Positions 3,321 to 49,544 of a stretch of DNA of 64,000 nucleotides are shown in pieces. The position numbers were made by a program, and so were the translations under genes. This DNA comes from Roseomonas sp. OT10 (GTDB taxonomy: Bacteria > Pseudomonadota > Alphaproteobacteria > Acetobacterales > Acetobacteraceae): assembly GCF_020991085.1 (NCBI RefSeq), contig NZ_CP087719.1, forward strand, positions 2,810,001-2,874,000. Direction: 5' to 3'. Each line of letters begins with the position of its first letter. The first letter of the stretch is position 1. The notes beneath the pieces are model-generated. The model saw nothing but the letters and a program-made list of their open reading frames with translations, did not search any database and was not told the DNA's origin.

Positions 3321-4312
3321 GCCCGCCGCGCCCGCCGCCGCGACAGGCTCCACAGCAGCCCGCCCAGCCCCAGCAGCGTGACGCCCATGCCCACCACCAG
3401 CACGCGGCGGACCAGCGGCACCGCGAATCCGTCCCCCAGCCCGAAGCCGGCGCAGAGCAGGCGCAGCCGCTCGCCCAGCCGCGCCAGCCCCGTACCTCCG
3501 TCCCCGCCTCGCGCGGCCGTCTCCAGCGCTGCGCGCAGCGCCGGCGGCTCCGGCACCAGCCCGTCCAGCACGGCGGTCACGCGCCCCGCCGGGTCCAGCA
3601 CCAGCGCGCCGAGCGGATGTGCGTACTCCCCCGTCGCCGGGTCGCGCCATGCCCGGTAGCCCAGCGCCGCCTGTGCCGCCGCCAGCTCCCCGGGCGCCGC
3701 AGTCAGGAACAGCGCGGCCGGCGCCACGGGCGAATCCCCCAGCCGCGCCTGCTTCGCCGCCGCCGCCTCCCCGGGCCCGTCGCGCGGATCGAGCCCCAGG
3801 ACGAGCAACGCGTAATCCGTCCCCGGCCGCAGCCCGCTGCGCTCCAGCCCCGCCGCAGCCAGTCCCAGCGCGGTGCCGCACAGCACGGTGCAGCGGTAGT
3901 CCGCCAGCACCAGCAGCGCCGGCCGACCGTCCAGCAGCGCCGCCGGTGTGGCCATGCGCCCGGCGTCCGTGGTCAGCGCCAGCCCGGGCGGCAGCTGCGC
4001 GCCGGGCGGCGGGTCCAGTGCGATCCCGTCCGGCGGGGCGGCAAAGGCCGGCACGGCAAGGAACAGCCCGAGCAGGGGGAGAGCACGTCTCTTGCGGGGT
4101 GCCTGTCCGGCCGCCGGACCAGGGGGAGGCGCCGCCTCCCCCTGGAACCCCCGCCGCCGGGGCCCGAAGCCGGGCCCCGGACCCCGGGCGGGAGTCTGGT
4201 GCCGGGTGGCACCGTCAGCCTGCGGGCTGAACCCGGAGCGCGCGCGGACAGGCGGGGCGCCGGAAGACGATTCCAGGCCACGCGCGCGGACGCCAAACCC
4301 GCCGGAGGTCAT
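3317..4312 (-). CDS. SCO family copper chaperone, start inside repeat R1
   Basis: SCO proteins deliver copper to CuA of subunit II, the next gene. The recognisable protein starts at a signal sequence (RALPLLGLFLAVPAFA). It contains the copper motif CTVLC (CxxxC) and a distal His in EYAHPLG, and ends in a C-terminal membrane helix plus basic tail. No ATG, GTG or TTG lies in frame just before the signal sequence. The nearest is ATG 4312, in the central hairpin of repeat R1. A further ATG at 4447 overlaps the upstream stop (ATGA) and may be the original start before the repeat was inserted. The protein would therefore have about 75-120 repeat-derived N-terminal residues, unless a non-standard start is used. 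Function is fairly sure; the start is not. Confidence 0.8.
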   Translation of the reverse strand: MTSGGFGVRARGLESSSGAPPVRARSGFSPQADGATRHQTPARGPGPGFGPRRRGFQGEAAPPPGPAAGQAPRKRRALPLLGLFLAVPAFAAPPDGIALDPPPGAQLPPGLALTTDAGRMATPAALLDGRPALLVLADYRCTVLCGTALGLAAAGLERSGLRPGTDYALLVLGLDPRDGPGEAAAAKQARLGDSPVAPAALFLTAAPGELAAAQAALGYRAWRDPATGEYAHPLGALVLDPAGRVTAVLDGLVPEPPALRAALETAARGGDGGTGLARLGERLRLLCAGFGLGDGFAVPLVRRVLVVGMGVTLLGLGGLLWSLSRRRARRA

Positions 4313-4411
4313 CGACCTCCGGCGCGCCGACGCGTCTGTGAATGAGGGTCCAGGGGCTCTGCTCCTGGCGGATAGGGGGGGCCGGCGGGGAAAGGCAGCG
4401 CCTTTCCCCCC
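4119..4411 (-). repeat. Structured dispersed repeat R1 (between act/cox operon genes)
   Basis: First of five related elements. Read on the minus strand it has, in order: a hairpin aaaggc-gct-gccttt; an imperfect hairpin with outer arms ccagg/cctgg (4350-4368); a 10-bp stem with 3-nt loop (4301-4323, arms gccggaggtc/gacctccggc); a conserved block ggttcagcccgcaggct; ccagactcccgcc; a GC hairpin; and a terminal perfect 12-bp stem with 3-nt loop (4119-4145). No transposase or open flanking gene accompanies it. It separates the 136-residue protein from SCO and is in the same direction as transcription. Its closest relative in the window is R2. Confidence 0.85.
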
Positions 4412-4443
4412 GGTCGCGGCCGGCCACCAGCCCGACGCCCCCC

Positions 4444-4854
4444 TCATCGCGCCCTCCCCGGCCGCGCCGCCTCGGGCCGCACCGGCAGGGGCACGCCCGG
4501 TTCCGGCGTCTCCAGCGGCGCCCAGGCGGCATCGCCGCGCGCCGCCAGGATGGCCATGGCGCGGGCGACGGGGATGCGGACCAGGCCACGGGCGCGGTCC
4601 TGCCAGGCATAGCCTTCGACCTGCGCCCGCTGTTCCGGGGCCATGGCGTCGCGGGTCTCGGCGGAGCGCGCCTCCAGGCGCGGCGGCGGGACGACGGCGG
4701 GCCGCGGGATGGCGGTGTCCGGCCTGGCCCAGTGGAACCAGGCGGCGACCCCGGCCAGGGTGAGGAGGAGGAGCGCCGCCGTCCCCAGCCCCGCGCCCAG
4801 GATGGCGCGCAGGTTCAGCCGTTCGGGTTCGCGACGGCGGGCGCTCTCAGCCAT
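4444..4854 (-). CDS. Small membrane protein of the act-cox operon, unknown function
   Basis: This 136-residue protein has a basic N-terminus (residues 1-15), one membrane helix (about 18-40) and an extracytoplasmic domain with the stretch YAWQDRARGLVRIPVARAMA. The pattern 'Tyr-x-Trp-x-Asp ... Val-Arg-Ile-Pro ... Arg-Ala-Met' is one I associate with small proteins between alternative complex III and oxidase genes, but I cannot assign a role. It overlaps actF by eight bases and its stop forms ATGA with a start codon at 4447. An accessory or assembly factor of the supercomplex is an inference from position. Confidence 0.75.
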   Translation of the reverse strand: MAESARRREPERLNLRAILGAGLGTAALLLLTLAGVAAWFHWARPDTAIPRPAVVPPPRLEARSAETRDAMAPEQRAQVEGYAWQDRARGLVRIPVARAMAILAARGDAAWAPLETPEPGVPLPVRPEAARPGRAR

Positions 4855-5914
4855 CGGGCGCCTCCATCCGGCGCAGGAGCCGCCCGGCCCGGGGACTGTA
4901 GGCGAGGCCGAGCCAGATCCCTCCCACCGCCAGCAGGCCGAGCAGGGCCGCCGGCAGCACGGCCGGCCCGAAGGCCGGCGCCACGATCCAGCACAGGTGC
5001 AGCCCGAAGCCGGCCAGGGTCGCGGCGCCCAGCCCCGCCAGGGCTGCGGGGCTGCGCCGGGTCCCGGGCCACAGCAGCGCCGCCAGGGGGATCAGGGCCG
5101 AGAGCAGGAAGGACGCGCCTTGCAGGGCCAGCCAGCCCGCGCCCCCGCGGTGCAGGAACCAGCGCGCCTTGTCCGGCAGGTCGCCGTACCAGGCGACCAG
5201 GTACTGCACGAAGCCGAGATAGAGCGCCCCGAGCACGGCGGCGAAGAGCAGCGCGGCGAGGTCCCGCACCACCCTTCCCCGGGCCGGGCGCAGCAGCGCC
5301 GCCCAGGCGAGGGCGGCCATCATCTGCATCACCAGCGCCGCCACCCCGAAGGCGGTCGAGGTGAAGCGCGGGTCGAGCGAGAGCAACCAGTCCAGCGCCA
5401 CCAGCGTCACCGCGCCCAGGTGGAAGACCAGCCCCAGCGCCCCGGCCAGCACCCGCCCGCCGCCGCGCAGGCGCAGCAGCGCCCAGCCCAGCAGGCACCA
5501 GACGCCCCAGGCCCCCAGCGTGCGCAGCCGGAAGCCGGTGGGGTTGAGGTAGAGCCGCGCCACGTCCGGCGCCGCCGCGGCTGCCGGATCGCTTGCCCAG
5601 GGGTAGAGCGCGACGAGGCCGAGCAGCAGGGGCAGCAGCAGCGGCAGGAAGGCCGGCAACCCCAGCGCCGCCGGGGCCAGGGCGGGACGCAGCGCCGCGC
5701 CCCAGCGCCCGCCGGTCAGCGCGTGCACCGCCAGCAGCGCCACCGCCCCCAGCGCGACGGAGGCCCAGAAGGCGAGCCCGATCAGCCAGCCCGCCGCCGG
5801 GGCGGCCGGCGCGAGCAGTGCCCAGAGCCCCAGCACGACGGTGGCCGCGAGACCGAGGAGCAGGGCGCGCCCCGTGCGCTCGCCCAGCCAGGCGATCGGG
5901 TCGGCACCGGTCAT
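4847..5914 (-). CDS. actF: Alternative complex III membrane subunit ActF
   Basis: This 355-residue polytopic protein of about ten hydrophobic helices belongs to the NrfD/PsrC-like ActC/ActF pair that anchors alternative complex III (quinol:cytochrome c / oxidase oxidoreductase). Segments such as LVALDWLLSLDPRFTSTAFG and LHLCWIVAPAF are typical of ActF. ATG 5914 overlaps the actE stop (ATGA), and the gene overlaps the next one. It follows the canonical order A-B-C-D-E-F. ActF is usually about 400 residues, so this version is somewhat compact. Confidence 0.88.
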   Translation of the reverse strand: MTGADPIAWLGERTGRALLLGLAATVVLGLWALLAPAAPAAGWLIGLAFWASVALGAVALLAVHALTGGRWGAALRPALAPAALGLPAFLPLLLPLLLGLVALYPWASDPAAAAAPDVARLYLNPTGFRLRTLGAWGVWCLLGWALLRLRGGGRVLAGALGLVFHLGAVTLVALDWLLSLDPRFTSTAFGVAALVMQMMAALAWAALLRPARGRVVRDLAALLFAAVLGALYLGFVQYLVAWYGDLPDKARWFLHRGGAGWLALQGASFLLSALIPLAALLWPGTRRSPAALAGLGAATLAGFGLHLCWIVAPAFGPAVLPAALLGLLAVGGIWLGLAYSPRAGRLLRRMEAPDG

Positions 5915-6537
5915 GGCGCCTCTCCCCGGCCCTCGCCCAGCGCGGCGGCCGCCTCCGGCGCCTCGGCCAGGGTGGCGTGGCGGGAGAGTTGCAGCGCCCG
6001 GATATAGGCGGCGATGGCCCAGCGGTCGGCGGGCTCCACCCGGTCGGCGTAGGAATACATCACGCCGTAGCCGCGGGTGATGACCTCCACGAAGTACCCC
6101 GCCGGCACCGCCCGCAGCCGGCGGGTGTGGTAGGAGGGCGGGGAAGGGAAGCCGCGCCGCACGATGATCCCGTCGCCCTCCCCCGCCGCGCCGTGGCAAG
6201 GCTGGCAGGCGATGGCGAAGCGCTCCTGCCCCCGCGCCAGCAGCGCGGCGGTGACGGGCGGCGGCGCCGGCTCCTCCAGCACGGCATCGCGCGCCACCAC
6301 CCCGGGCGGCAGCGGCCGGGACACCACGCCGCCGGGCCAGGCATCCGTGGCCCCCTGGGGGTCGAGACGCTTCTGTTGCGCCATCTCCTGCCGGCAGCCG
6401 GCCAGGGCAAGCGCCGTCCCGAGCAACAGGAAGGCCAGGCGGGTCGCGCGGTGGCTGGCCCCCGGGGGGGAAGGCTCCGCCTTTCCCCCCGGACCCCCCC
6501 TATCCGCCAGGAGCAGAGCCCCTGGACCCCCATTCAC
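5911..6537 (-). CDS. actE: Alternative complex III monohaem cytochrome c lipoprotein ActE, start inside repeat R2
   Basis: The recognisable protein begins with a lipoprotein signal (LAFLLLGTALALAGC, lipobox Cys codon at 6394-6396). It carries one haem site CQPCHG and a likely axial Met in GYGVMYSYADR, matching ActE, an electron carrier of alternative complex III on the periplasmic side. Upstream of the signal the only in-frame start is GTG 6537, which lies in repeat R2. About 33 residues before the hydrophobic core would therefore be repeat-encoded. The repeat runs antisense here. The stop overlaps actF (ATGA). Function is well supported; the start is uncertain. Confidence 0.82.
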   Translation of the reverse strand: MNGGPGALLLADRGGPGGKAEPSPPGASHRATRLAFLLLGTALALAGCRQEMAQQKRLDPQGATDAWPGGVVSRPLPPGVVARDAVLEEPAPPPVTAALLARGQERFAIACQPCHGAAGEGDGIIVRRGFPSPPSYHTRRLRAVPAGYFVEVITRGYGVMYSYADRVEPADRWAIAAYIRALQLSRHATLAEAPEAAAALGEGRGEAP

Positions 6538-6753
6538 AGACGCGTCGGCGCGCCGGAGGTCGATGACCTCCGGCGGGTTCGGCGTCGGCGCGCGTGGCCT
6601 GGAATGTCCTGTTGGCGCCCCGCCTGTCCACGCGCTCCCCGGATTCAGCCCGCAGGCTGCCGGCAAGCACCCGGTGCCAGACTCCCGCCGGGGTTCGGGG
6701 GCCGGCTCGCCCCCGGCGGAGGGGGGTCCGGGGGCGAGGCAGCGCCTCCCCCC
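6464..6753 (+). repeat. Structured dispersed repeat R2 (between actD and actE)
   Basis: Second element of the family, with its forward strand opposite to the operon. It has the same order of parts as R1: hairpin aaggc-tcc-gcctt at 6471-6483, imperfect hairpin 6507-6525, 10-bp/3-nt hairpin 6552-6574, block gattcagcccgcaggct, ccagactcccgcc, a cgggggc/gcccccg hairpin, and a terminal gaggc-agc-gcctc hairpin near 6740. It is very similar to R1 over the central 150 nt (subfamily A, with the shared cattcacagacgcgtcgg segment). It fills the actD-actE junction. Confidence 0.85.
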
Positions 6754-6770
6754 GGGGGTGCCGCCGGCTC

Positions 6771-7295
6771 TCACGCCACCACCCGCCGGACGGAGAGCGG
6801 CGCCAGCCCGTCGAGCAGCGCGGCCAGCCGGGCCTCGTCGGCCTCCGGGTCCGCGACGGCGAGGAAGAAGCGGTCCTGGCTGGCGCGGCCGATGTCGTGG
6901 GCGTCGAAGACAGGGTGGTTCAGGCGCGGCAGGCCGGTGGAGACGAGGAAGAACCCGACGCCGGTGAAGGTGGCGCCGAGGATTCCCGCCTCGAAGGACA
7001 GCACGAGGAAAACCTGCCAGGTGTTCAGCGGCCGCCCGCCCAGCACGATGGGGTAGTCGATCACCGCCGCGTACCAGCACATCGCGAAGACGAAGCCGGC
7101 CGAGAGCAGCCCGCCCACCAGCATCGCCGGGCGCACCGGCGGGGTGGGCAGGGCCAGCGCCTCGGCCAGACCTTCCACTGCGAAGGGGGTGTGCGCGTCC
7201 AGCCCGCGCAGCCCCGCCCGCCGTGCACGCCGGGCGGCGTCGATCAGCGTCTCCGGGTCGCGGAACTCGGCGAGGAGGAGCGGCGTCGCGTTCAT
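6771..7295 (-). CDS. actD: Alternative complex III subunit ActD (DUF3341)
   Basis: This 174-residue protein has two membrane helices (about residues 60-80 and 95-120) between soluble ends. The order and motifs are those of ActD: an N-terminal LLLAEFRDPETLIDAARRAR, a central YPIVLGGRPLNTWQVF, and a C-terminal FDAHDIGRASQDRFFLAV. ActD is a non-haem peripheral/membrane subunit of alternative complex III. ATG 7295 overlaps the actC stop (ATGA). Repeat R2 follows immediately after the stop. Confidence 0.9.
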   Translation of the reverse strand: MNATPLLLAEFRDPETLIDAARRARRAGLRGLDAHTPFAVEGLAEALALPTPPVRPAMLVGGLLSAGFVFAMCWYAAVIDYPIVLGGRPLNTWQVFLVLSFEAGILGATFTGVGFFLVSTGLPRLNHPVFDAHDIGRASQDRFFLAVADPEADEARLAALLDGLAPLSVRRVVA

Positions 7296-8650
7296 GCGCC
7301 GCGTTCCCGGTCACGCAGCAGCTTGCCCAGGTCGTGCATGGCGATCACCGGCAGCAGCCGCGCGAAGACGAGGAAGAGCAGCAGGAAGAAGCCGATCGTG
7401 CCGGCCAGCAGCGACCAGTCCCAGAAGGTCGGCCGGAAGACGGCATGCATCGCCGGCAGGTGGCCGTGCGAGAGCGTGTTCCAGATGATGAGGACGCGCT
7501 CCAGCCACATGCCGAGGTTCAGCACCAGCGAGACCGTCACCACCGCGACGATGCTCTCCCGCGCCCGTGCCGACCACAGCAGTTGCGGCACCAGCACGTT
7601 GCAGGCGAGCAGCACGGCGTAGAGCGGCGCGTAGGGGCTGGCGAACAGGAAGGCGACGTGCCCGCGCTCCGCGCCGTCGCCGCCGTACCAGGCGGTGAAC
7701 CACTCCGTCAGGTAGGAGAGGCCGAGCACCAGCGAGCCCGCCAGGATCACCTTCGCCATCGCCGCGAAATGGCGGTGCGTAAGGACGGCCTGCAGACCCA
7801 GCCCCCAGCGCATCAGCGCCGCCACCACGACGCACATGCCGAAGCCGGAGAAGAGAGCGCCGGCGACGAAGTAGGGCGGGAAGATGCTCTCCGACCAGCC
7901 GGGCATCAGGCTGGCGGCGAAGTCCATCCCCACCACGCTGTGCACGGACACCACCAGCGGCAGCGCCATCGCCGCCATGGTGCGATAGACCCTCTCGTGC
8001 AGGTGCCAGTGCCGCGCCGAGCCGCGCCAGCCCATCGCCAGCACGCCATAGGCCAGCCGCGCCCCGCGTCCTTTTCGCCCCTGACCCTGGGCCCGGTCGC
8101 GCAGCGTGGCGAGGTCGGGGATCAGCCCCAGCCACCAGAACAGCGCCGAGAAGATCAGGTAGGTCGAGATCGCCGCTGCGTCCCACACCAGCGCGGAGCG
8201 CCACTGCGGCCACAGGTCCATCGTGTTCGGATAGGGCAGGATCCAGTAGGCCCGGTACGGCCGCCCCAGGTGCAGGATCGGGAACAGCCCGGCGATGGCG
8301 CCAGCGAAAAGCGTCATCACCTCCGCGAAGCGGTTGATCGCCGCGCGCCAGGGCTGCCGCGTCAGCAGCAGCGCGGCGGAGATGAAGGTGCCGGCATGGC
8401 CGATGCCCAGCCACCAGACGAAGTTCGCGATGGCGAAGCCCCAGACGACGCTGGTGTTCACCCCCCAGACCCCCACGCCCTCGGCGAAGAGCCAGCCGAT
8501 CGAGACGAGCATCAGCCCCGTCCCCAGCACCCCCGCCGCGAAGGCGATCCAGTACGGCCGCCCCACCCGCCGCCGCAGCAACGGGTCCGCGACCGCGCCC
8601 ACCAGAGAGCCGTAGGTCGCCTCGCGCGGGAGCAGGCCATCGGTGCTCAT
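7292..8650 (-). CDS. actC: Alternative complex III quinol-binding membrane subunit ActC (NrfD-like)
   Basis: This 452-residue polytopic membrane protein of the NrfD/PsrC superfamily is the probable quinol-oxidising subunit of alternative complex III. It has about ten hydrophobic helices, the family-like segment WWLGIGHAGTFISAALLL at about residues 79-96, and TEWFTAWYGGD in a periplasmic loop. The start ATG 8650 (MSTDGLLPREATYG) fits the family N-terminus. It is separated from actB by repeat R3, and no strong ribosome binding site is seen just before it. The stop overlaps actD. Confidence 0.92.
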   Translation of the reverse strand: MSTDGLLPREATYGSLVGAVADPLLRRRVGRPYWIAFAAGVLGTGLMLVSIGWLFAEGVGVWGVNTSVVWGFAIANFVWWLGIGHAGTFISAALLLTRQPWRAAINRFAEVMTLFAGAIAGLFPILHLGRPYRAYWILPYPNTMDLWPQWRSALVWDAAAISTYLIFSALFWWLGLIPDLATLRDRAQGQGRKGRGARLAYGVLAMGWRGSARHWHLHERVYRTMAAMALPLVVSVHSVVGMDFAASLMPGWSESIFPPYFVAGALFSGFGMCVVVAALMRWGLGLQAVLTHRHFAAMAKVILAGSLVLGLSYLTEWFTAWYGGDGAERGHVAFLFASPYAPLYAVLLACNVLVPQLLWSARARESIVAVVTVSLVLNLGMWLERVLIIWNTLSHGHLPAMHAVFRPTFWDWSLLAGTIGFFLLLFLVFARLLPVIAMHDLGKLLRDRERGA

Positions 8651-8668
8651 GCCGTGATGCCCGTGGCC

Positions 8669-8982
8669 CGGGGGGAGACGCCGCCTCCCCCCGCACCCCC
8701 CCTCAGCCGGGGACGGGCCGGCCCCCGGACCCCGGCGGGAGTCTGGTGCTGTGTGGGAAGGGCGTGGTCTGTGGGCTGAACCCGGGGAACGTATGGTCGG
8801 ACGGGATTCAAGGGCGAAGACGCTGGCAGCGGGCGAGGCGGCCGTGCCCGCCGGAAGCCCATGGCCGCCGGCGCATCGACCCCGAAGCAGGTTGCCTCGC
8901 AGCAGCGCCCCCTGGGTCCAGGGCACGCAGTGTCCTGGCGGATGAGGGGTACGGGGGGCAAGGCGGAGCCTTTCCCCCGGGG
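8669..8982 (-). repeat. Structured dispersed repeat R3 (between actB and actC)
   Basis: Third element, sense with respect to the operon. Read on the minus strand it has aaaggc/gccttg, hairpin 8918-8938 (inner stem cac/gtg), a 10-3-10 hairpin at 8850-8872 with different inner arms from R1/R2, block gggttcagccc, ccagactcccgccgg, and a terminal gaggc..gtctc hairpin (8669-8693). It fills the whole 346-nt actB-actC gap, which otherwise has no gene. Short ORFs inside it are repeat-derived and unsupported. It belongs with R5 by its second hairpin. Confidence 0.82.
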
Positions 8983-8996
8983 AACCGGCGCCCCGC

Positions 8997-11780
8997 TCAC
9001 TCCACCTCCGGGTGGCGCAGCGCCGCGAGGTAGGTGGTGCGCGGGCGCGTGCCGAGGTGTTCCAGCAGCGCGTAGTGGGCGGGGGAGCGGCGCAGGGCCA
9101 CGACCTCCTCGGCGGGGTTGTTCAGGTTGCCGAAGCTGATGGCCTGGGCGGGGCAGGCGGACTGGCAGGCGGTGACGACCTCGCCCGCGGCGAGGGGGCG
9201 TTCCTCCTTCGCGGCGGTGCGGCGGGCGGCGCTGAGGCGCTGGACGCAGTAGGTGCACTTCTCCATCACGCCGCGGGCGCGCACCGTCACCTCCGGGTTG
9301 CGCTGCGCCGCGAGGGTGGGGGCGCCGAGATTCGCGTATTCCTGGCCGTCGGCATAGCCGCGGAAGTTGAAGCGCCGGACCTTGTAGGGGCAGTTGGCCT
9401 GGCAGAAGCGCGTGCCGATGCAGCGGTTGTAGACCTGCGCGTTCAGCCCTTCCGCATCATGGACCGAGGCGGCGACGGGGCAGACGGGCTCGCAGGGCGC
9501 GTGCTCGCAATGCATGCAGGGGACGGGCTGGAAGCCCGGGCACGGATCGGTCTCGGGACCGGCCTCGTAGGTGTCGATGCGCAGCCAGTGCATGTCGCGG
9601 CCGCGCGCGACCTCCTCGGGGCCCACGACGGGGACGTTGTTCTCGCTCTGGCAGGCGACGACGCAGGCGTTGCAGCCGATGCAGCGCGTCGTGTCGATCA
9701 CCATGGCCCAGGCCGCATCGGCGTCGCGCGGCAAGGGGGGGTTGAAGCTTGGCGGATCGGGGTGGGGCGTCCCGGCCGGCGGTACCGGGGCGGTACGGAA
9801 CAGCGTGGCCGCCTCGCCCTCCAGCGGCGCTTCCGGGCCCAGGCGCAGCAGAGTGCCTGGCTGGCCGGTGGGCTCCAGCATCAGCCCCGGCATGGCCCAG
9901 GGCGCGTCCGGTCGGCGCAGCGCGTAGGCGTCCGCCCCCACCCCGTCGCCGATGGCGCCCGCGCGGCGGCGTCCGCCGCCCAGCGCCACGGCCACCACGC
10001 CGGGCGCCATGCCGGGGCGCGGGAGCGCGGGCAGCTCCAGCGCGCGCCCGTCCAGCGTCAGGCGGACCAGCGCGCCCTCCTCCACCCCGCGGCGGCGCGC
10101 CTCCTCCGGCGCCAGCAGCGCGGCATTGCCCCAGACCTGGCGGGTCAGCGGGCGCGGGCATTCCTGCAGCCAGGGATTGTTGGCGAAGCGCCCGTCCCAG
10201 AGCGCGGCGTCGGGGCGCAGCAGCAGCGTCAGCCCCTCGGCGGGCACGGGGGGCAGGGGCGGCAGGCGCGGCGCGCCCGCGTCCACGGCGGGGGCGGCGC
10301 TGTCCGGCACCACCCCGTCGCGCAGCACCCGGCGCCACCAGGGCTCGAACCCCTCCCCCGCGCGCCCGGCGGCCCAGGTCTCGCGCACGGCGTCGCGGGC
10401 GGAGAGGTCGTCGCGCCCCAGCAGCACGCCCAGCAGCCAGTGGGCCGGCCGGGTCGCCTGGTAGAGCGGCGTGATCAGCGGCTGCGCGACGGCGGCGGTG
10501 CCGTCCGTGGCGCGCAGGTCACCCCATTCCTCCAACGGGTGGGTCTCCGGCAGGTGCCAGCGGCAGGCCGCCGCCGTCTCGTCCCGCCAGGGGCCGAGAT
10601 GGACGGAGAAGGCGCCCGAATCCCGCAGCGCCGCCTCCCAGCCCAGCGCCGCCGGGGCATCGTGGCCGGGGTTGGCACCGAGGATGACGAGCGTGTCCAC
10701 CCGCCGCTCCCGCAGCGCCCCGACCAGTGCCGCGAGGGTGGCGGGCGGCTCCGCCGGGCCGACGGGTTCGGTCAGCGCCACGGGGGCGGCGAGCCGGGCG
10801 TTGATCCAGTGGGCCAGGGCGTGCAGCTCCGGCGGCTGCCACTCGCCGACAAGGATCAGCGCCTCGCCGGGATGGGCCAGCAGGTCGGCCGTCGCGGCAT
10901 CGAGGAAGCGCGCGGCCTCGGGCGGCAGGTCCGGCGCGGGCAGCCCGGCGCCCAGCCGCGCCGCCAGCGCCACGGCTAGGTCGCGCACCAGCCCGGGCGG
11001 AGCGGCAAGGCGGCGGTCCGCCTTGGCGCCCGTGGCACTCATCACCGGCTCGGCGGCGTAGAGCCGCGCGGTGGTCTCGCCGCCGCGTTGCGCCGACCGG
11101 CGTGCCGCGAAGGCCCGGGCGTGGCGGATCTGGTCCGGCCCCGGGCCCAGCGGGTCGGCGTCCAGCGCCAGCACCATGGCGGCCCGCTCCAGGCGGGGCC
11201 GCGCCGCCAGCGGCCGCCCGAAGGCCAGGGCCGCGCCGGCCAGCGCGTTCGCCTCCCCCACCGCCTCGTGCGCATGGTGGCGCAGCGCCGGGAAGCGGGC
11301 GCGCAGCTCCCCGATCAGCCGCAGCAGGGTGGGCGAGGCGACATGGCCCGTCAGCAGCGCCAGCCCCTCGCCGCCCCGCGCCTCCAGCGCCCGCAGCCGG
11401 GGCGACAGGTCGGCGAGGAAGGCCTCCCGCGAGGCGATGCGCCCCTCCCGGCGCAGGGTGCGGGAGCGGTCGGGATCGTAGAGCGACAGCACCGCCGCCT
11501 CGGCGAAGACATCCGTGGCGCCGAGGCTCGCCGGGTGGTCCGGGTTGCCCTCCACCTTGGTCGGGCGCCCCTCGACCGAGGTCACCACCACCCCGCGGCC
11601 ATAGCCGCCCAGCGGCAGCACGGTGGCGAAGCGGCGCGGCAGGCCCGGCCCCTCGCCTACCTCCTGCTCCACGGCGGGGACGATCTCCTCCGGCGGCTCG
11701 CCGCAGGCGGTCAGCGCGGCGGCCGAGGCCAGCAGCGCCAGCGCCGCCTGCCGGCGGGACAGGGGCGGCGCCCCGCTCAC
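8997..11780 (-). CDS. actB: Alternative complex III ActB (molybdopterin-like domain fused to 4Fe-4S ferredoxin domain)
   Basis: This 927-residue periplasmic subunit starts at GTG 11780, which overlaps the actA stop (GTGA). The N-terminus has a twin-arginine signal (LSRRQAALALL) ending at a possible lipobox Cys (LTAC). The first roughly 650 residues resemble molybdopterin oxidoreductases, which in ActB do not bind the cofactor. The C-terminal part (about 695-875) has four cysteine clusters: CIGCNACVVAC, CMHCEHAPCEPVCP, CIGTRFCQANCP and CTYC...CQSACP. These are expected to hold the Fe-S clusters that pass electrons from the membrane subunit to the haems of ActA/ActE. Confidence 0.95.
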   Translation of the reverse strand: MSGAPPLSRRQAALALLASAAALTACGEPPEEIVPAVEQEVGEGPGLPRRFATVLPLGGYGRGVVVTSVEGRPTKVEGNPDHPASLGATDVFAEAAVLSLYDPDRSRTLRREGRIASREAFLADLSPRLRALEARGGEGLALLTGHVASPTLLRLIGELRARFPALRHHAHEAVGEANALAGAALAFGRPLAARPRLERAAMVLALDADPLGPGPDQIRHARAFAARRSAQRGGETTARLYAAEPVMSATGAKADRRLAAPPGLVRDLAVALAARLGAGLPAPDLPPEAARFLDAATADLLAHPGEALILVGEWQPPELHALAHWINARLAAPVALTEPVGPAEPPATLAALVGALRERRVDTLVILGANPGHDAPAALGWEAALRDSGAFSVHLGPWRDETAAACRWHLPETHPLEEWGDLRATDGTAAVAQPLITPLYQATRPAHWLLGVLLGRDDLSARDAVRETWAAGRAGEGFEPWWRRVLRDGVVPDSAAPAVDAGAPRLPPLPPVPAEGLTLLLRPDAALWDGRFANNPWLQECPRPLTRQVWGNAALLAPEEARRRGVEEGALVRLTLDGRALELPALPRPGMAPGVVAVALGGGRRRAGAIGDGVGADAYALRRPDAPWAMPGLMLEPTGQPGTLLRLGPEAPLEGEAATLFRTAPVPPAGTPHPDPPSFNPPLPRDADAAWAMVIDTTRCIGCNACVVACQSENNVPVVGPEEVARGRDMHWLRIDTYEAGPETDPCPGFQPVPCMHCEHAPCEPVCPVAASVHDAEGLNAQVYNRCIGTRFCQANCPYKVRRFNFRGYADGQEYANLGAPTLAAQRNPEVTVRARGVMEKCTYCVQRLSAARRTAAKEERPLAAGEVVTACQSACPAQAISFGNLNNPAEEVVALRRSPAHYALLEHLGTRPRTTYLAALRHPEVE

Positions 11781-12433
11781 CGGTGGCACCGCGAGCAGTC
11801 GGTCAGGTGCTCGGTGCGGATCATGTAGTCGCGGATCAGCGCTTCGCCCCGCGCCCGCTGGTCGGGCGGCGGGGTCCAGCGCATGTCGTAGACCGCCTCG
11901 CGCGGGCGCAGGTTCGGCGCCGGGTCGCGGTGGCAGTCCAGGCACCAGCCCATGGTCAGCGGCGCGGCCTGGCGCAGCTGCTGCATCCGGTCCACCGCGC
12001 CGTGGCAGGTGGAGCAGCCGACGCCCTTCGCGACATGGATGCTGTGGTCGAAATAAACGTAGTCCGGCAGGCGATGGACCCGCACCCAGCGCAGCGGCAC
12101 GTCCCGCGCCAGCGATTCGCGCACCGGCGCCAGGATCGCCGCGTTGGTCCAGAGCTGGGAATGGCAGGCCATGCAGGTCTGGGTCGGCGGCAGGCCGGCG
12201 AAGCGCGACCGCTCGGCGCCCGTGTGACAGTTGCGGCAGTCGAGCCCGAGGCCGCCGACATGGTGCGCGTGGCTGAACTGCACCGGCTGCTCCACCGTCA
12301 CGTCCTGCCGCGTCACGTGCGGGGTGAAGGGCAGCGCGACCAGCAGCCCCAGCCCGCCCAGCAGCAGCGCGGCGCCGCCGAGCAGCCCGGCCCGGGCGAG
12401 GGTGGTGGCGACGGGGGGAAAGAGCTGCGCCAT
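11777..12433 (-). CDS. actA: Alternative complex III pentahaem cytochrome c ActA
   Basis: This 218-residue protein has one N-terminal membrane helix (about 14-35) and exactly five CxxCH haem sites: CRNCH, CMACH, CSTCH, CLDCH and CSRCH at about residues 64, 87, 139, 163 and 213. This matches pentahaem ActA, which receives electrons from ActB and sits on the periplasmic face. It is the first gene of the operon, with its ATG at 12433 and a 331-nt divergent gap before it. Confidence 0.95.
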   Translation of the reverse strand: MAQLFPPVATTLARAGLLGGAALLLGGLGLLVALPFTPHVTRQDVTVEQPVQFSHAHHVGGLGLDCRNCHTGAERSRFAGLPPTQTCMACHSQLWTNAAILAPVRESLARDVPLRWVRVHRLPDYVYFDHSIHVAKGVGCSTCHGAVDRMQQLRQAAPLTMGWCLDCHRDPAPNLRPREAVYDMRWTPPPDQRARGEALIRDYMIRTEHLTDCSRCHR

Positions 12434-43382: not shown

Positions 43383-44498
43383 ATGCGCGTGATCGTCGTG
43401 GGCGCCGGAATACTGGGCGCCAGCGCCGCCTATCACCTGGCCAGGGCCGGGGCGAAGGTCGTGCTGCTGGATGACGCGCGGGAGGGCCGGGCCACCGCCG
43501 CCGGGGCGGGGATCGTCTGCCCCTGGGCCTCCGCCAACGAGGACCCCGACTGGTACGCCATCGCCGCCGGCGGCGCGCGCTTCTACCCCGGGCTGGTGCA
43601 GGCGCTGGCCGATCTCGGCGAGGCCGACCTCGGCTACCGCCGCGTCGGCGCCCTCTGCGCCCCGGGGGACGAGGATTCGCTGGAGATCGTCGAGGCCCGG
43701 CTGCGCGCCCGTGCCGTCGAGGCCCCCGAGGCCGGCGAGATCACCCGCCTGCCGCCCGAAGAGGCGCGCGCCCTCTTCCCCGCCCTGCACCCCGACCGCG
43801 CCGCGATCCATGTCGCCGGCGGCGCCCGGCTGGACGGCCGCCGGCTGGCCGCGGCGCTGCGCCGCGCCGCCGTCCACCACGGCGCCATCGAGGGTGGCGA
43901 GGCCACGGCCCTGACCGCCTGGGGCGAGCGGGTGACCGGTGTGCGCGTCGAGGAAGGCCCGGTCTTCGAGGCCGACGCCGTGCTGCTCGCCGCCGGGGCC
44001 TGGGCGCCGCCGCTGCTGGCGCCGCTCGGGCTGCGGCTGGACGTGCCGCCGCAGCGCGGGCAGATCGCGCACCTCGCCCTGCCCGGCCAGGACACGTCGC
44101 ACTGGCCCGTGCTGCTGCCCGGCACCAGTCACTACCTGCTGGCCTTCGACGATTCCCGCGTGGTGGTCGGCGCGACGCGTGAGACCGGCTCGGGCTTCGA
44201 CCACCGCCTCACCGCCGCCGGCGTCCACGAGGTGCTGGGCCAGGCCCTCGCCGTCGCCCCCGGGCTGGGCCACGCGACGCTGCTGGAGGTGCGGATCGGC
44301 TTCCGGCCGATGAGCCCGGACGGCAAGCCCCTCCTCGGCCCGGTGCCGTCGCGTCCGGGACTGTGGATCGGCAATGGCCTGGGGCCGAACGGGCTGACCC
44401 AGGGCCCCTTCGCCGGGGCGCTGCTGGCGGACGCCATCCTGGGCCGGCCGACAGCGCTGGGCCTCGCCGCCTACGACCCGATGCGCGCGATGCGCTGA
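43383..44498 (+). CDS. FAD-dependent oxidoreductase (DadA/glycine oxidase-like)
   Basis: This 371-residue flavoprotein has the FAD-binding IVVGAGILGASAAYHLARAG at residues 4-23 and the DAO C-terminal signature GFRPMSPDGKPLLGPV followed by GNGLGPNGLTQGP. It would oxidise a D-amino acid or a secondary amine. Substrate unknown. The 433-nt gap after it holds repeat R4. Confidence 0.9.
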   Translation: MRVIVVGAGILGASAAYHLARAGAKVVLLDDAREGRATAAGAGIVCPWASANEDPDWYAIAAGGARFYPGLVQALADLGEADLGYRRVGALCAPGDEDSLEIVEARLRARAVEAPEAGEITRLPPEEARALFPALHPDRAAIHVAGGARLDGRRLAAALRRAAVHHGAIEGGEATALTAWGERVTGVRVEEGPVFEADAVLLAAGAWAPPLLAPLGLRLDVPPQRGQIAHLALPGQDTSHWPVLLPGTSHYLLAFDDSRVVVGATRETGSGFDHRLTAAGVHEVLGQALAVAPGLGHATLLEVRIGFRPMSPDGKPLLGPVPSRPGLWIGNGLGPNGLTQGPFAGALLADAILGRPTALGLAAYDPMRAMR

Positions 44499-44595
44499 GG
44501 CACGTCGCGCCCGTGACCCTCAGAGAGAGCCCCGTCCCCCCCTACGACGGACGGCGCGATGCCCTGATCCGTGCCAACTCGAGGTGCAGCCCGTT
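44499..44595. other. Spacer 5' of repeat R4
   Basis: Nothing recognisable is seen in these bases; no promoter or gene is supported. The element proper starts at about 44596. Confidence 0.3.
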
Positions 44596-44912
44596 CCCCG
44601 GGGACAAGGCTCCGCCTCGCCCCCGTACCCCCACTCCGCCAGGACCCTGCGGGCCCTGGACCCGATCAGTGCTGCCGCGGGACAGCCTGCGACGGGGTCG
44701 AGGCGCCGAGGAGCCAGGCTCCTCGGCGGGACCGGCCGCCGCTCTCGCGGACGCCCTCTGAAGCTTTTTCAGAGTCCCCCCCTGTCCACGCGTCGTCAGG
44801 GTTCAGCCCGCAGGCTGACGCCACCATACGGAACCAATTCCCAGCGGGGTCCGGGGCCCGCTTGTGGCCCCGGCGGAGGGGGGTCCGGGGGCGAGGCAGC
44901 GCCTCCCCCCGG
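44596..44912 (+). repeat. Structured dispersed repeat R4
   Basis: Fourth element, between the convergent FAD oxidoreductase and rsmD. It has the hairpin aaggctccgcct, the second hairpin 44639-44659 (inner stem ccc/ggg), the 10-3-10 hairpin 44705-44727 (gccgaggagc/gctcctcggc) and an extra perfect hairpin ctctgaa/ttcagag (44756-44774) in the variable segment. Then follow gggttcagcccgcaggct, a ggggcc/ggccc hairpin and the terminal gaggc-agc-gcctc hairpin (44893-44905). Its 3' end lies 20 nt from the rsmD stop. Confidence 0.85.
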
Positions 44913-44931
44913 TCCGGCGCCCGAACCCACC

Positions 44932-45498
44932 TTATGGCGCGGCCTCCTCGCCCCGCCGCAGCACCAGCATCCGCGCCGCGCCGTGGGCGCGTTCGGCCAG
45001 GAGGTCCCAGCCAGGGAGTGCCGGTGGCGCTTCGGCCTTGCCGAGTTCCAGGCAGGCGACCGCGCCCGGCGCCACCCAGCCGGCGCGTTCCAGCGCGGGC
45101 AGGGCGGCGGCGGTGAGGTCCTGGCCATAGGGCGGGTCGAGGAAGAGCAGGCCGCAGGGGGCATCGGCGCGAGGGGGCTTGCGGGCATCCACCGCCAGCA
45201 CCCGCGCCTCCGCCCCCAGCGCGGCGAGGTTGGCGCGCAGCGCGGCCAGGGCTGCGCGGTCGTTCTCCAGGAAGGTGGCGCGGGCGGCGCCGCGGGAGAG
45301 CGCCTCCAGCCCGAAGGCGCCCGTGCCGGCGAAGGCGTCCAGCACCACGGCGCCCTCCACCAGATCGCGCCCGCCCCAGGGCGCGTGCCAGAGCATGTCG
45401 AACAGTGCTTGGCGCACGCGCTCCGCGGTGGGGCGGGTGGAGGGGCCGGGCGGTGCCTGCAGGGCGCGGCCGCGCCAGCGCCCGGCGATGATCCTCAC
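44932..45498 (-). CDS. rsmD: 16S rRNA (guanine966-N2)-methyltransferase RsmD
   Basis: This 188-residue enzyme starts MRIIAGRWRGRAL, with TRPTAERVRQALFDML, AdoMet motif VLDAFAGTGAFGLEALSRG, and the catalytic LLFLDPPYG. It methylates G966 of 16S rRNA during 30S assembly. The start overlaps the upstream monooxygenase gene by four bases; the stop is TAA at 44932. It ends a minus-strand operon headed by the glutamine-hydrolase and rluB genes. Confidence 0.94.
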   Translation of the reverse strand: MRIIAGRWRGRALQAPPGPSTRPTAERVRQALFDMLWHAPWGGRDLVEGAVVLDAFAGTGAFGLEALSRGAARATFLENDRAALAALRANLAALGAEARVLAVDARKPPRADAPCGLLFLDPPYGQDLTAAALPALERAGWVAPGAVACLELGKAEAPPALPGWDLLAERAHGAARMLVLRRGEEAAP

Positions 45499-45806
45499 GC
45501 CGGGATCGGCTGCAGGACCCGGCGCTCCCGCGACGCGAGGCGGTCCAGCGCGTCGCCCAGCACCAGCGCGCGGAAATGCGGCGCCTGCTGGTGGGCGAGG
45601 AAGGCCGCCTCGTCGTCATAGACCTCGTAGATGACGAAGCGGTGGTCGTCCGCCGCGTCGCGGTGCGCGACGTACTGGCGGCAGCCGGGCTCGTCCCGCC
45701 GCACCGCCTCGGCCACGCGCGCGAGGAGGGAGGCGACGGCCTCCGCCTCGCCGGGCCTGGCCTGCCACAGGGCAAGGATGACGTAGCCGCCGGCCATGGC
45801 GCTCAC
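45495..45806 (-). CDS. Antibiotic biosynthesis monooxygenase-domain (quinol monooxygenase-like) protein
   Basis: This 103-residue protein starts at GTG 45806 (overlapping the rluB stop, GTGA). The ABM fold is suggested by YVILALWQARPGEAEAV, EPGCRQYVAHRDAAD and FVIYEVYDDEAAFLAHQQAPHF. ABM proteins are cofactor-independent oxygenases or enzymes of aldehyde/quinol metabolism; a specific role is not clear. An internal ATG (45797) is an alternative start. Confidence 0.82.
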   Translation of the reverse strand: MSAMAGGYVILALWQARPGEAEAVASLLARVAEAVRRDEPGCRQYVAHRDAADDHRFVIYEVYDDEAAFLAHQQAPHFRALVLGDALDRLASRERRVLQPIPA

Positions 45807-47008
45807 TCCTTCATCTTCCGCTTGGCCCCCCAGGGGGTGCGGTAGGGATCGCCCGCCGAGCGGGCGCGCGGCGGGCGGGCGCGCTTCTCCGCGGGCCCGG
45901 CGGGCTCCTCCTCCCCGGCCGTCCGGTCGCGGCCGCGCACCACGCGGGGCGGGGCGTCGAGGCCGAGCTGGTCGCGCATGACCTTGGCGTTGACCTCCTC
46001 CACCGCGCCCTTGGGCAGGTTGCCGAGTTGGAAGGGGCCATAGGCCGTGCGGATCAGCCGCGTCACCTGAAGGCCGAGATGGGCCAGCACGCGGCGGACC
46101 TCGCGGTTCTTGCCCTCGTGCAGCGCCACCGTCAGCCAGGCATTGGTGCCCTGGCGGGAATCCAGCCCGGCCTGGATCGGGCCATAGGCCACGCCCTCCA
46201 CCGTGACGCCGCGCGCGAGCTTCGCCAGCGCCGCCTCGTCCACCCGGCCATGGACGCGGGCGCGGTAGCGGCGGATCCAGCCGTTGGCGGGCAGCTCCAG
46301 CTTCCGCGCCAGCGCACCGTCATTGGTCAGCAGCAGCAGCCCCTCGCTGGTCAGGTCCAGCCGCCCGACCGAGATCAGCCGCGGCAGGCCGGGGGGCAGG
46401 CGCTCGAAGACCGTCGGCCGGCCCTGCGGGTCCTTGTGCGTGGTGACGAGGCCGTCCGGCTTGTGGTGGCGGAACAGCCGGGTGCGCTCCGGCGCGGCGA
46501 CCGGCCGGCCGTCCACCGTCACCGCGTCGCCCGGCTGGAGGAAGGTGGCGGGGGTGGCGACGACCCGGCCCGCCATCTTCACCCTTCCCTCGGCGATCAG
46601 CGCCTCGGCGGCGCGGCGGCTGGCGATGCCGGCGCGGGCCAGGAAGCGGGCGATGCGCTCGCCGCGCGCGGGGTCCTCCGCCTCCTCCTCGCCGGCCGGT
46701 TCGCCGGGGCCATCGCCCAGGGGGACGTCGGACACGGTCTGCGCGGCGGCGAGGCTGGCGGCCTCCTCGGTCCGGGGCATGGCAGGGGCGGGGCGTCGCG
46801 GCGCACGCGGCTTCGCGGCGGGGCGCGGCGGATCGAGATGCTCTACCGCCGTCTGCGCGGCGGCGAGGCTCGCGGCCTCCTGTGGCGGCGGGGCGGGGGG
46901 CTCGGCGCCGCGCGGCGAATCCACCGGGGCCTGTGCCGTGGCGAGGGCCTCCGCCCCCGCCTTCGGGCGCCGACGGCGGGGCTTGGCGGGATCGGCCGGG
47001 TCGCTCAT
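45803..47008 (-). CDS. rluB: rRNA pseudouridine synthase RluB with disordered N-terminal extension
   Basis: This 401-residue protein starts with about 120 disordered Pro/Ala/Glu-rich residues, including a duplicated segment EAASLAAAQT at residues 44-53 and 82-91. An S4 domain follows (RIARFLARAGIASRRAAEALIAEGRV), then the RsuA-type synthase domain with GRLDLTSEGLLLLTNDG (catalytic Asp) and GKNREVRRVLAHLGLQVTRL. It modifies 23S rRNA. The C-terminus is again basic and low-complexity. ATG 47008 overlaps the upstream stop (ATGA). Confidence 0.92.
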   Translation of the reverse strand: MSDPADPAKPRRRRPKAGAEALATAQAPVDSPRGAEPPAPPPQEAASLAAAQTAVEHLDPPRPAAKPRAPRRPAPAMPRTEEAASLAAAQTVSDVPLGDGPGEPAGEEEAEDPARGERIARFLARAGIASRRAAEALIAEGRVKMAGRVVATPATFLQPGDAVTVDGRPVAAPERTRLFRHHKPDGLVTTHKDPQGRPTVFERLPPGLPRLISVGRLDLTSEGLLLLTNDGALARKLELPANGWIRRYRARVHGRVDEAALAKLARGVTVEGVAYGPIQAGLDSRQGTNAWLTVALHEGKNREVRRVLAHLGLQVTRLIRTAYGPFQLGNLPKGAVEEVNAKVMRDQLGLDAPPRVVRGRDRTAGEEEPAGPAEKRARPPRARSAGDPYRTPWGAKRKMKE

Positions 47009-47796
47009 GCCGGCACCGCCTCGCCCCGCTTCGCCACGCCCGCGGCCGTGGCGCCAGGCATGGAGGCGCGGCAGGCAGCGACGAAGGCGGCGAGGATGTC
47101 GCCGTCGCGCGGGTCCACCCCGTATTCCGGATGCCACTGCACACCCAGGCAGAAGCGGTAGCCGGGGTGCTCGATCGCCTCCACCACCCCGTCCGGCGCG
47201 GTGCCGGAGACGATCGCGCCGCGCCCCGGCCGGGCCACCGCCTGGTGGTGCGCGCTGTTCACCGACAGCGTCGCGGCCCCCCCGGTCACGCGGGCGAGCA
47301 GCGTGCCCGGCTCCACGCGCACTTCGTGGCCCGGCTCCGTGCGGGGATTGGGCTGCTCGTGCGCCAGCGCGTCGGGAATGCTGTCCGGGATGTGCTGGAT
47401 CAGCGTGCCGCCGAGCGCCACGGCAAGAAGCTGCTCGCCGCCGCAGATGCCCAGCACGGGGATGTCGCGCGCGAGCGCGCCGCGCAGGACCGCCAGTTCG
47501 AACGCCGTCCGGGTCTCCTTCAGCGTCACCGTCGCATGCCGCTCCGCCGCGCCGTAGAGCGCCGGGTCCACGTCGAAGGCGCCGCCCGTGACCACGAGCC
47601 CGTCGAGCCGGTCGAGGTAGGCGTCCGCCAGTTCGGGAAGGTGCGGCAGGGCGATGGGCAGCCCGCCGGCCGCCGCGATGGCCGAGAGGTAGTTCTGGCG
47701 GATGGCGTACCAGGGCAGCTTCGACCAGCCGCCGGCCTCCTCCGCATCCAGGGTCAGGCCGATCAGGGGGGGCCGATCAGAAGGGGGCGAGGTCAT
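47005..47796 (-). CDS. Gamma-glutamyl-gamma-aminobutyrate hydrolase-like class I amidotransferase (PuuD family)
   Basis: This 263-residue enzyme has the nucleophile Cys in VLGICGGEQLLAV and the His-x-Glu in GVQWHPEY, plus a DGLVVTGGAFDVDP motif. PuuD cleaves gamma-glutamyl-GABA in putrescine breakdown, but no other puu genes are adjacent, so the substrate may differ. First gene of the rluB-rsmD operon, with ATG at 47796. Confidence 0.87.
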   Translation of the reverse strand: MTSPPSDRPPLIGLTLDAEEAGGWSKLPWYAIRQNYLSAIAAAGGLPIALPHLPELADAYLDRLDGLVVTGGAFDVDPALYGAAERHATVTLKETRTAFELAVLRGALARDIPVLGICGGEQLLAVALGGTLIQHIPDSIPDALAHEQPNPRTEPGHEVRVEPGTLLARVTGGAATLSVNSAHHQAVARPGRGAIVSGTAPDGVVEAIEHPGYRFCLGVQWHPEYGVDPRDGDILAAFVAACRASMPGATAAGVAKRGEAVPA

Positions 47797-48010
47797 CCTG
47801 GTTTGGTAGGCGGGTGATGGGCGGCGGGCAAGCGGGACACAGGGCCCGCCGGCGGGTGGCTGACGCGGACGCCGCTCTCCGGCCGCGTCGCAGCATGGGA
47901 GGAACCTCTCCTTGCGGAACCGGCGCCTGCGATGGGCGTCGTTGCTTATGTGGCATAGCAGATCGTCACGCCCACGCGGCCCAAGCAAGCACCGCCGCGC
48001 ACCGCGCGGG

Positions 48011-48403
48011 TCAGGCGCCGTCCCGGATGTCACCCCGGATGTCACCCTGGGCCTCGTAGGCCCGCCTTGCCGCGACGATCCGGCGGTGATGCGTGTCGGC
48101 CCATCGCACCAGCCCCCGCATCGGGTCGAGGAAGGAGCGGCCCAGCTCCGTCAGCGCGTAGTCCACGCGCGGCGGCACCTCCGCGAAGACGGTGCGGCGG
48201 ACGAAGCCGTCCTGCTCCAGCCGGCGCAGAGTGCGCGACAGCATCTGCTTCGAGATGTCGCCGATCCCGCGCAGCAACTCGTTGAAGCGGCGCGTGCCGC
48301 CCTCCAGCTCGTGCAGCACCAGCAGGCTCCACTGGTCGCCGATCCGGTCCAGCACGTCCCGGATCGGGCAGGGCTGTCCGGGCGGTGGCTCCGGTTCGGT
48401 CAT
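48011..48403 (-). CDS. HxlR-family transcriptional regulator
   Basis: This 130-residue winged-helix regulator has CPIRDVLDRIGDQWSLLVLH with the N-terminal conserved Cys, RFNELLRGIGDISKQMLSRTLRRLEQDGFV, and PPRVDYALTELGRS. HxlR proteins sense reactive compounds and control a divergent oxidoreductase; here one starts 156 nt away. ATG 48403 was preferred over 48424 because a ribosome binding site (ggagag) precedes it. Confidence 0.9.
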   Translation of the reverse strand: MTEPEPPPGQPCPIRDVLDRIGDQWSLLVLHELEGGTRRFNELLRGIGDISKQMLSRTLRRLEQDGFVRRTVFAEVPPRVDYALTELGRSFLDPMRGLVRWADTHHRRIVAARRAYEAQGDIRGDIRDGA

Positions 48404-48559
48404 GCACTCTCCCCCCATGGTCACATGGGCCTGACCCGGTCACGCCGCGATGACGTCTTGTGGCCCTCTGTCGGGGCCCATACCTTCCGGCCCACGGTCC
48501 ACTTTCCGGACCTTATCACGAATCCAGACCACGCCCAGACCAAGCGAAGGATGCACGCC
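48404..48559. promoter_or_regulatory. Divergent HxlR/oxidoreductase promoter region
   Basis: 156 nt between the HxlR gene and the oxidoreductase. It contains short symmetric pieces (tccgg...ccgga around 48487-48514, and ccatggtcacatgg at 48416-48429) that could be HxlR operators. No strong -35/-10 pair is seen. Confidence 0.35.
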
Positions 48560-49171
48560 ATGGCCAAGGTCGCCCTCATCGGTGCCTCGGGAAATGCGGG
48601 AACCCGGATCCTGCGGGAGCTGTCGGACCGCGGCCACCAGGTCACCGCCATCGTCCGCCACCCGGAGAAGGTCGCGGCCCTGCCCGGCGTCACCGCGGTG
48701 AAGGGCGACGCCCACGACCGGGCCGGGCTCGCTGCCCTGCTGCGCGGCCACGACGCGGTGATCAGCGCCGTCCACTTCACCGCCAGCGACCCGGAGACGC
48801 TGATCGCGGCGGTGCGGGAGGCGGGGGTGCGGCGCTACCTCGTCGTCGGCGGCGCCGGCAGCCTGGAGGTCGCGCCCGGCCAGCGGCTGCTGGACCAGCC
48901 GGACTTCCCCGCCGCCTACAAGGCCGAGGCCACCGGCGGGGCGCAGTTCCTCGACCGGCTGCGGGGCGTGGACGATCTCGACTGGACCTTCCTCTCCCCC
49001 TCCGCGATGTTCGTGCCGGGCGAGCGGACGGGCCGCTTCCGCCTCGGCGGGGACGCGCTGCTGACGAACGAGCAGGGCTCCAGCATCTCCTTCGAGGACT
49101 ACGCCATCGCCCTGGTGGACGAGCTGGAGCGCCCCGCCCACATCCGCCAGCGCTTCACTGTCGGGTACTGA
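48560..49171 (+). CDS. NAD(P)-binding oxidoreductase (NmrA-like, SDR atypical)
   Basis: This 203-residue Rossmann protein has ALIGASGNAGTRILRELSDRGH at the N-terminus, VTAIVRHPEKV, and the atypical-SDR end. It resembles the YhfK/NmrA-like NAD(P)H oxidoreductases commonly paired with HxlR regulators. Start ATG 48560 (spacing to an aagg ribosome site) was preferred over ATG 48551. Its cellular substrate is unknown. Confidence 0.88.
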   Translation: MAKVALIGASGNAGTRILRELSDRGHQVTAIVRHPEKVAALPGVTAVKGDAHDRAGLAALLRGHDAVISAVHFTASDPETLIAAVREAGVRRYLVVGGAGSLEVAPGQRLLDQPDFPAAYKAEATGGAQFLDRLRGVDDLDWTFLSPSAMFVPGERTGRFRLGGDALLTNEQGSSISFEDYAIALVDELERPAHIRQRFTVGY

Positions 49172-49230
49172 GGTCCCCTCCCCGCGGACGGCGCCCACGC
49201 GGGGGGCGAGGCGTTGCGCCCTTCGCCCCC
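49172..49230. other. Spacer 5' of repeat R5, with an extra hairpin
   Basis: An additional stem (gggggcgag...cttcgccccc, 49202-49230) abuts repeat R5. Nothing else is recognisable. Confidence 0.4.
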
Positions 49231-49544
49231 GGAGGGAAGGCTCCGCCTTCCCCCCGATACCCCCCATCCGCCAGGACACTGCGTGCCCTGGACCCGGTGG
49301 GGCTACCGCGGGACAGCCGGATACGGGGTCACGTCGCCGGAGGTCATGGACCTCCGGCGGGTTCGGCCATCGCCCTCGCTGCCGCATTCTTCTGCTTTCC
49401 CTGCGCCTCGCCTGACCACGCGTTCTCCAGGTTAAGCCCGAAGGCCAAACCCCTGGCCACGGAGAGCCAGACGTCCGCCGGGGTCCGGGGGCCGGCTCGC
49501 CCCCGGCGGAGGGGGCATCGGGGGAGGTGGCGCCTCCCCCGGGG
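49231..49544 (+). repeat. Structured dispersed repeat R5
   Basis: Fifth element, between the NmrA-like gene and the aminotransferase. It has the hairpin gaaggctccgccttc, the second hairpin 49271-49291 (cac/gtg inner stem, identical to R3), the 10-3-10 hairpin 49336-49358 (gccggaggtc/gacctccggc), block caggttaagcccgaaggc, the cgggggc/gcccccg hairpin and the terminal gggggagg...cctccccc hairpin (49520-49540). It shares gctaccgcgggacagcc with R4. About 140 nt remain to the aminotransferase start, with no clear promoter. Confidence 0.84.

Follow-up and report, generated by a model that had tools for sequence, protein, structure and literature searches.

A large, structured repeat family in Roseomonas, probably a miniature transposable element, lodged behind stop codons

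What are the five long, hairpin-rich repeats scattered through a 64-kb stretch of the Roseomonas sp. OT10 genome, and how did they come to lie between the genes of its operons? The stretch, called the window here, comprises 64,000 nucleotides (C1:2810001-2874000) with a G+C content of 74%. It belongs to a 5.69-Mb genome (G000) with a main replicon, C1, of 5.33 Mb and a contig C2 of 286 kb. An earlier note on the window had described the repeats, R1 to R5, as elements with one fixed order of parts and had offered two readings of them: a non-autonomous mobile element or a structured RNA. We consider it likely, with a probability of roughly 0.78, that these R-elements are a new, large, structured family of bacterial miniature inverted-repeat transposable elements (MITEs), moved in trans by an IS5-type transposase. 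The element and the resident IS5 family (NCBIfam NF033580) both show TNA duplications in the context C-TNA-G. The mobile-element proposal is borne out by the copy number, by the inverted repeats and target duplications, and by the empty sites that seven relatives provide, while the RNA proposal holds only insofar as pairing is maintained by compensatory changes.

How large is the family? All five copies are present in the window, and alignments of 30 and 50 copies confirm the order of parts common to R1-R5. A 17-nt block, GGTTCAGCCCGCAGGCT, has 152 matches genome-wide at one mismatch or fewer, and the reversed pattern has none. A profile built from 30 copies was searched against 864 kb of sequence, made up of the window and 40 sampled 20-kb stretches, yielding 62 matches, of which 44 were strong (E<1e-25; one partial), and none in the reversed sequence; many of the weak matches are palindromic cross-matches on the opposite strand. 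The strong matches are distributed as 5 in the window, 2 in 20 kb of C2, 0 in 20 kb of C3, and 37 in 760 kb of C1. The density in sampled C1 DNA, ~49 copies/Mb, extrapolates to roughly 260 copies on the whole of C1. A genome-wide search without further copies, which the earlier note had named as grounds for abandoning the family, was thus not the outcome.

Where do the copies end? The originally described extent of 290-320 nt captured mainly the inner part, but the ends of subfamily B lie ~45-50 nt further out on each side. This subfamily, marked by GGGGGCAAGGC, is the commonest and forms the majority, although A/B proportions are biased outside the classification of the sampled stretches, because most subfamily A copies were collected by their likeness to R1. 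Subfamily B copies are mostly 407-420 bp long (up to 448) and terminate in the inverted repeat TACGGACGGCGGGATG and its inverse; subfamily A has inner inverted complementarity only and lacks the outer ends. Many subfamily A matches in the unfiltered end search were due to chance, and all counts given here use the filtered lists. Requiring both ends gave 41 listed pairs, or 34 end-defined B copies after overlaps were removed. TNA stands on both sides of 23 of these 34, and in 18 of the 23 the same triplet occurs twice (10 TCA, 8 TGA); the remainder are 3 TGA/TCA and 2 TGA/TAA pairs. A triplet belonging to the inverted repeat itself would predict a TGA/TCA majority, which is not seen. The pairing of left and right flanks exceeds that of shuffled flanks (p<=5e-5; G/C match, Fisher p=0.001), and the 18 same-triplet copies have C before the triplet in 12 cases and G after it in 14. 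Subfamily B thus combines inverted repeats, a target duplication, short length, the absence of a transposase gene, and many copies, as expected of a MITE. Across 26 aligned B copies, identity is 80-91% (mean 86%); the B family is old and without sign of a fresh burst.

What do the insertion sites have in common? For 25 of the 34 end-defined B copies, one of the two flanking triplets coincides exactly with the TGA stop codon of an adjacent gene, on either strand, so that the stop codon survives the insertion. Genes were called with our own codon-usage caller, trained on the window. By comparison, 20.8% of TGA/TCA sites outside coding interiors are stops (600/2,880), as are 31.4% of those in which TGA is preceded by C or TCA is followed by G (370/1,177) and 46.5% of strict CTGAG/CTCAG sites in noncoding DNA (119/256). 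The excess is significant under every one of these backgrounds (p from about 6e-11 to 0.0013) and amounts to about 1.6-fold over the strict target background (p=0.0013). Much of the stop-codon excess follows from the target rule together with the loss of harmful insertions, and we claim no additional targeting of stops. A start a few bases past a TGA stop is likewise seen in many copies of subfamily A and in several from relatives.

The placement initially described, only between genes or at gene starts, was correct as to intergenic position; it is gene 3' ends rather than starts that the copies adjoin. Among 111 copies with both neighbors called (80 of 82 from G000 and 31 from relatives), the flanking genes converge at 64, run in the same direction at 46, and diverge at 1. 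In the sampled stretches, where 34 of the 44 strong matches could be classified (the rest were de-duplicated under another locus, at a stretch end, partial, or without a neighbor), 22 copies fall in 95 convergent intervals, 12 in 527 tandem intervals, and 0 in 96 divergent intervals, and overlap with called genes never exceeds 40 nt among the 34. Sampled subfamily B copies are mostly convergent (18/22) and subfamily A copies mostly tandem (8/12; Fisher p=0.008). Where the genes are in tandem, 31 copies point with them and 15 against, a mild bias.

Can the insertions be recognized from empty sites? The copies in the window and the proposed duplication at R3 are as follows.

4119-4420, minus strand: R1, subfamily A, between called genes 4444-4854 (minus) and 3317-4054 (minus).
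6453-6758, plus strand: R2, subfamily A, between actD at 6771-7295 (minus) and an ActE-like cytochrome c gene at 5911-6384 (minus).
About 8650-8996, minus strand: R3, subfamily A, filling the actB-actC junction; probable boundaries.
8997-8999, minus strand: proposed 5' copy of the R3 target duplication, the TGA of the actB stop codon, as suggested by the relatives.
8647-8649, minus strand: proposed 3' copy of the R3 target duplication, the TGA in A-TGA-GC at the actC start, as suggested by the relatives.
About 44546-44919, plus strand: R4, B-like, between convergent genes 43383-44498 (plus) and rsmD at 44932-45498 (minus).
49225-49548, plus strand: R5, subfamily A, between genes 48551-49171 (plus) and 49687-50997 (plus).

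R1, R2, and R3 are located in an alternative complex III/oxidase operon, R2 in the orientation opposite to its two flanking genes. These three, like R5, lack the outer B-type ends, and R4 has a degenerate B-type 5' end, GACGGACGGCGCGATG, at 44546 and is missing its outer 3' end. We compared the junctions with the seven closest loci (L061-L067) of 59 returned by a search with ActC; Roseomonas acroporae, at 85% identity, is the closest named relative by ActC among the loci returned. The actB-actC junction measures 20-73 nt in the seven relatives versus 346 in the window (R3), the actD-actE junction 59-182 nt versus 386 (R2), and the R1 junction 5-110 nt in the relatives. Because these junctions are short in all seven, R1, R2, and R3 are insertions. 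By our reading of the junctions, six of these loci (L062-L067) have overlapping genes there, the TGA that stops actB overlapping the start codon of actC (ATGA in four loci, GTGA in two). The window has GAG-TGA at the end of actB, then the element, then A-TGA-GC at the beginning of actC, with the A contributed by the element; by its probable boundaries, the last base of R3, at 8650, is this A of the actC ATG. Judging from this one site, the terminal A of the element and the duplicated TGA would together restore the actC start codon. R4 was unusable as an empty-site test: in the loci compared from 14 congeners, its upstream gene was not found next to rsmD. The 182-nt actD-actE junction of R. acroporae (L061, about 11924-12105) contains short repeats of its own (GGCCGCGA..ACGGTGCAGC..), which by eye are unrelated to the R-element.

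Which enzyme might move the element? The commonest resident IS5-family element (L285-L296) is ~950 bp long; its 12 copies are nearly identical, and C2 carries 9 of them. It shows TNA duplications with C before in 10 copies and G after in 9, and five further IS5 loci (L297, L298, and L305-L307) also show TNA. Its terminal repeats (GAGCC... and similar) are unlike those of the R-element, as is its placement: only 1 of the 12 copies is on a stop codon, with 4 in called genes and 7 in other spacers. We propose that an IS5-type DDE transposase acts on the R-element in trans, that insertions inside genes and promoters would be lost, and that surviving copies would accumulate behind stop codons, chiefly between convergent genes. 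At an overlapping RTGA stop/start target, for which R3 is the single case, the rebuilt start would leave the two genes separated and both intact. The internal hairpins may be retained for RNA folding at 3' ends, for single-strand folding during transposition, or through copying-based correction of palindromes.

Several observations weigh against a MITE moved by an IS5-type enzyme. Inspection of 30 of the 34 DDE_Tnp_1 loci, 7 further loci, and the IS5 loci revealed no autonomous partner with B ends; Y1 was the only transposase family searched besides DDE_Tnp_1 and IS5. Among 179 loci, three pairs of ends stand far apart (769-3529 bp), seemingly by chance, and two of these pairs reuse one end of an ordinary copy. 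TNA is lacking on at least one side of 11 of the 34 end-defined B copies, and the triplets are unequal in 5 more. The duplication is not proven for subfamily A, where R3 offers a probable case, or for the copies in relatives. Finally, no recent movement is seen, since the 26 aligned B copies are at most 91% identical. The genome also encodes DUF4096-only proteins of ~200 residues (C1:882631-883236, 1858521-1859126, and 5125128-5125706; L315-L317), which consist of the DUF4096 part of IS5-family transposases plus a conserved C-terminal part and occur as several diverged copies per genome. A stand-alone DUF4096 protein was rejected as a domesticated partner; strong matches occur in 15 of 15 genus genomes, whether or not the element is present.

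How far do the element and its hairpins extend beyond this genome? A genus search with the B consensus, in which an E-value limit applied and 40 candidates were scored per genome so that counts are lower bounds, gave matches in 11 of 15 genomes, G000 included: at least 46 to 54 in each of G003, G004, and G012; at least 12, 12, and 8 in G006, G013, and G014, respectively; and at least 1 to 3 in each of G001, G007, G009, and G011. The same search gave no matches in G002, G005, G008, and G010. Full copies in G003, G004, and G012 have the same ordered parts and different outer ends, and a duplication is not established there; the core is better conserved between species than the outer ends. Covarying base pairs are present in an alignment (A1) of 50 copies from four genomes (G000 and three congeners), hand-chosen from 96 listed. 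Under a 44-pair structure, 98.2% of its 2,200 cells form standard pairs, both sides have changed in a compensatory manner at 16 of the 44 pairs, and double-change cells number 162, compared with 46.3 (standard deviation 4.6) in shuffles and at most 15 with partners slid, all statistics that are inflated by the relatedness of the copies and by derivation of the structure from the same alignment. Relatives without conserved pairing, the other finding that would have told against the family as first described, did not appear; three congeners keep the hairpins through compensatory changes. Most copies also have a central T-rich stretch (A1 columns about 194-210), conspicuous in such GC-rich DNA.

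Across the bacterial family, to which Lichenicola also belongs, 200 genomes were searched with one G003 copy, scoring 3 candidates per genome. Matches were found in at least 36 of the 200, four of them in the genus; outside the genus they are short pieces, mostly terminal hairpins. Seven loci in other genera (L354-L360) contain GC-rich cassettes—hairpin, GGACCC linker, CCGCC, hairpin—often near gene ends, and one (L360) matches most of the profile (E=1.6e-13). The core may be an assembly of hairpin units that predate the genus and occur more widely than it does.

Could the repeats be something other than mobile elements? They might instead be a host-useful RNA module, a bidirectional terminator or mRNA stabilizer at 3' untranslated or intercistronic sites that spread by separating convergent genes, with mobility secondary. 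We regard this as possible though doubtful. Hairpins kept up by compensatory change in four genomes are what it would lead one to expect, as are a core common to subfamilies and species with differing outer ends, the bias of tandem copies toward the direction of the genes, and a placement at gene 3' ends in which 1 of 111 copies is divergent and 22 of 34 sampled copies are convergent although convergent intervals number 95 of 718. The target rule and selection also account for that 3'-end placement, however. A terminator scan found no terminator-like site inside the window copies, no consistent hairpin precedes the central T-rich stretch in alignment A1, and neither the window nor three loci containing copies match a family in Rfam 15. 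The pairing itself could also be a product of mutation, with template switching or gene conversion perfecting the palindromes so that compensatory changes are not functional. B copies do appear mosaic by eye, combining alternative blocks in many ways, and stem changes often come block-wise in both arms; yet the stems are 96-99.5% paired across four genomes with several pair types per position, while pairing is much poorer in the middle and in the outer arms, and we regard this explanation, too, as possible though doubtful.

Much less probable is an array of repetitive extragenic palindromic (REP) sequences, or bacterial interspersed mosaic elements (BIMEs), mobilized by a RAYT, a Y1 tyrosine transposase. 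GC-rich palindromes behind stops, high copy number, and the short, similarly styled hairpin cassettes that other genera of the bacterial family contain are in keeping with such an array, but the unit is ~410 bp long with TNA duplications, and a search for Y1 transposase (PF01797) gave 0 matches in G000 while the same search was positive in 5 of 14 control genomes. Chance similarity among GC-rich spacers, a natural suspicion in a window of this base composition, is refuted by the empty reversed-sequence controls and by the alignments of 30 and 50 copies, which leave it a negligible prospect.

How does such an element compare with known repeats? Like Correia/NEMIS, ERIC, RUP, and YPAL as they appear in passages of PMC2229807, it is apparently noncoding, has inverted ends and a target duplication, and occurs in many, mostly intergenic copies. 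Those elements are described there as about 100-200 bp long and mostly A+T-rich, with TA ends; their transcripts fold, and some of them are read in frame into proteins (PMC2229807). The R-element differs from the MITEs described in these passages in its length of about 410-420 bp, very high GC content, TNA duplication, and stop-codon landing. With REP/BIME sequences, as portrayed in parts of PMC12306157, it shares palindromes closely following stop codons, but REP units are short and their Y1 transposase is the one not found in G000; the same source gives 1,369 REP-type palindromes for Lichenicola cladoniae. The CIR repeats of Caulobacter and Brucella, compared by description only (passages of PMC2229807), are similarly alphaproteobacterial and intergenic with two conserved hairpin arms; unlike the R-element, they bear GANTC motifs, and they resemble MITEs only partly. 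No description of the family was found in titles and abstract openings of the open-licence literature or in passages of PMC12306157, PMC2229807, and PMC10969869, and PLSDB plasmids queried with the B consensus gave no match.

The size and composition of the element, its landing on stop codons left intact by the duplication, and a core conserved above its ends are unusual traits. It is conceivable, though we lean against it, that the element uses stop codons as safe harbors through which it enters packed operons without breaking genes, and that its structured core was later retained and put to use throughout the genus as a module at 3' ends where genes converge, with the mobile outer ends swapped among species. 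The family provides a case of a mobile repeat that reached hundreds of copies in a genome ~85% coding, its own duplication preserving the target stop. It also supplies, in four genomes, a natural series of hairpin variants for testing RNA action of repeats behind stops, and it is relevant to 3'-end studies in these bacteria, given the sizable share of convergent gaps that it occupies (22 sampled copies in 95 intervals).

Two of the window copies are also crossed by open frames. The frames 3317-4447 (minus) and 5911-6774 (minus) begin at an ATG or GTG overlapping the upstream stop, cross all of R1 and R2, and lead into two signal peptides, that of an SCO-like protein and that of the ActE-like cytochrome c. 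The former is presumably SCO-like on the strength of its CxxxC motif, having no Pfam hit. We did not accept these frames as evidence of coding, because 98 of 240 frames in subfamily A copies are open anyway (26.7% in mononucleotide shuffles). It is possible that they represent N-terminal extensions of about 100 residues.

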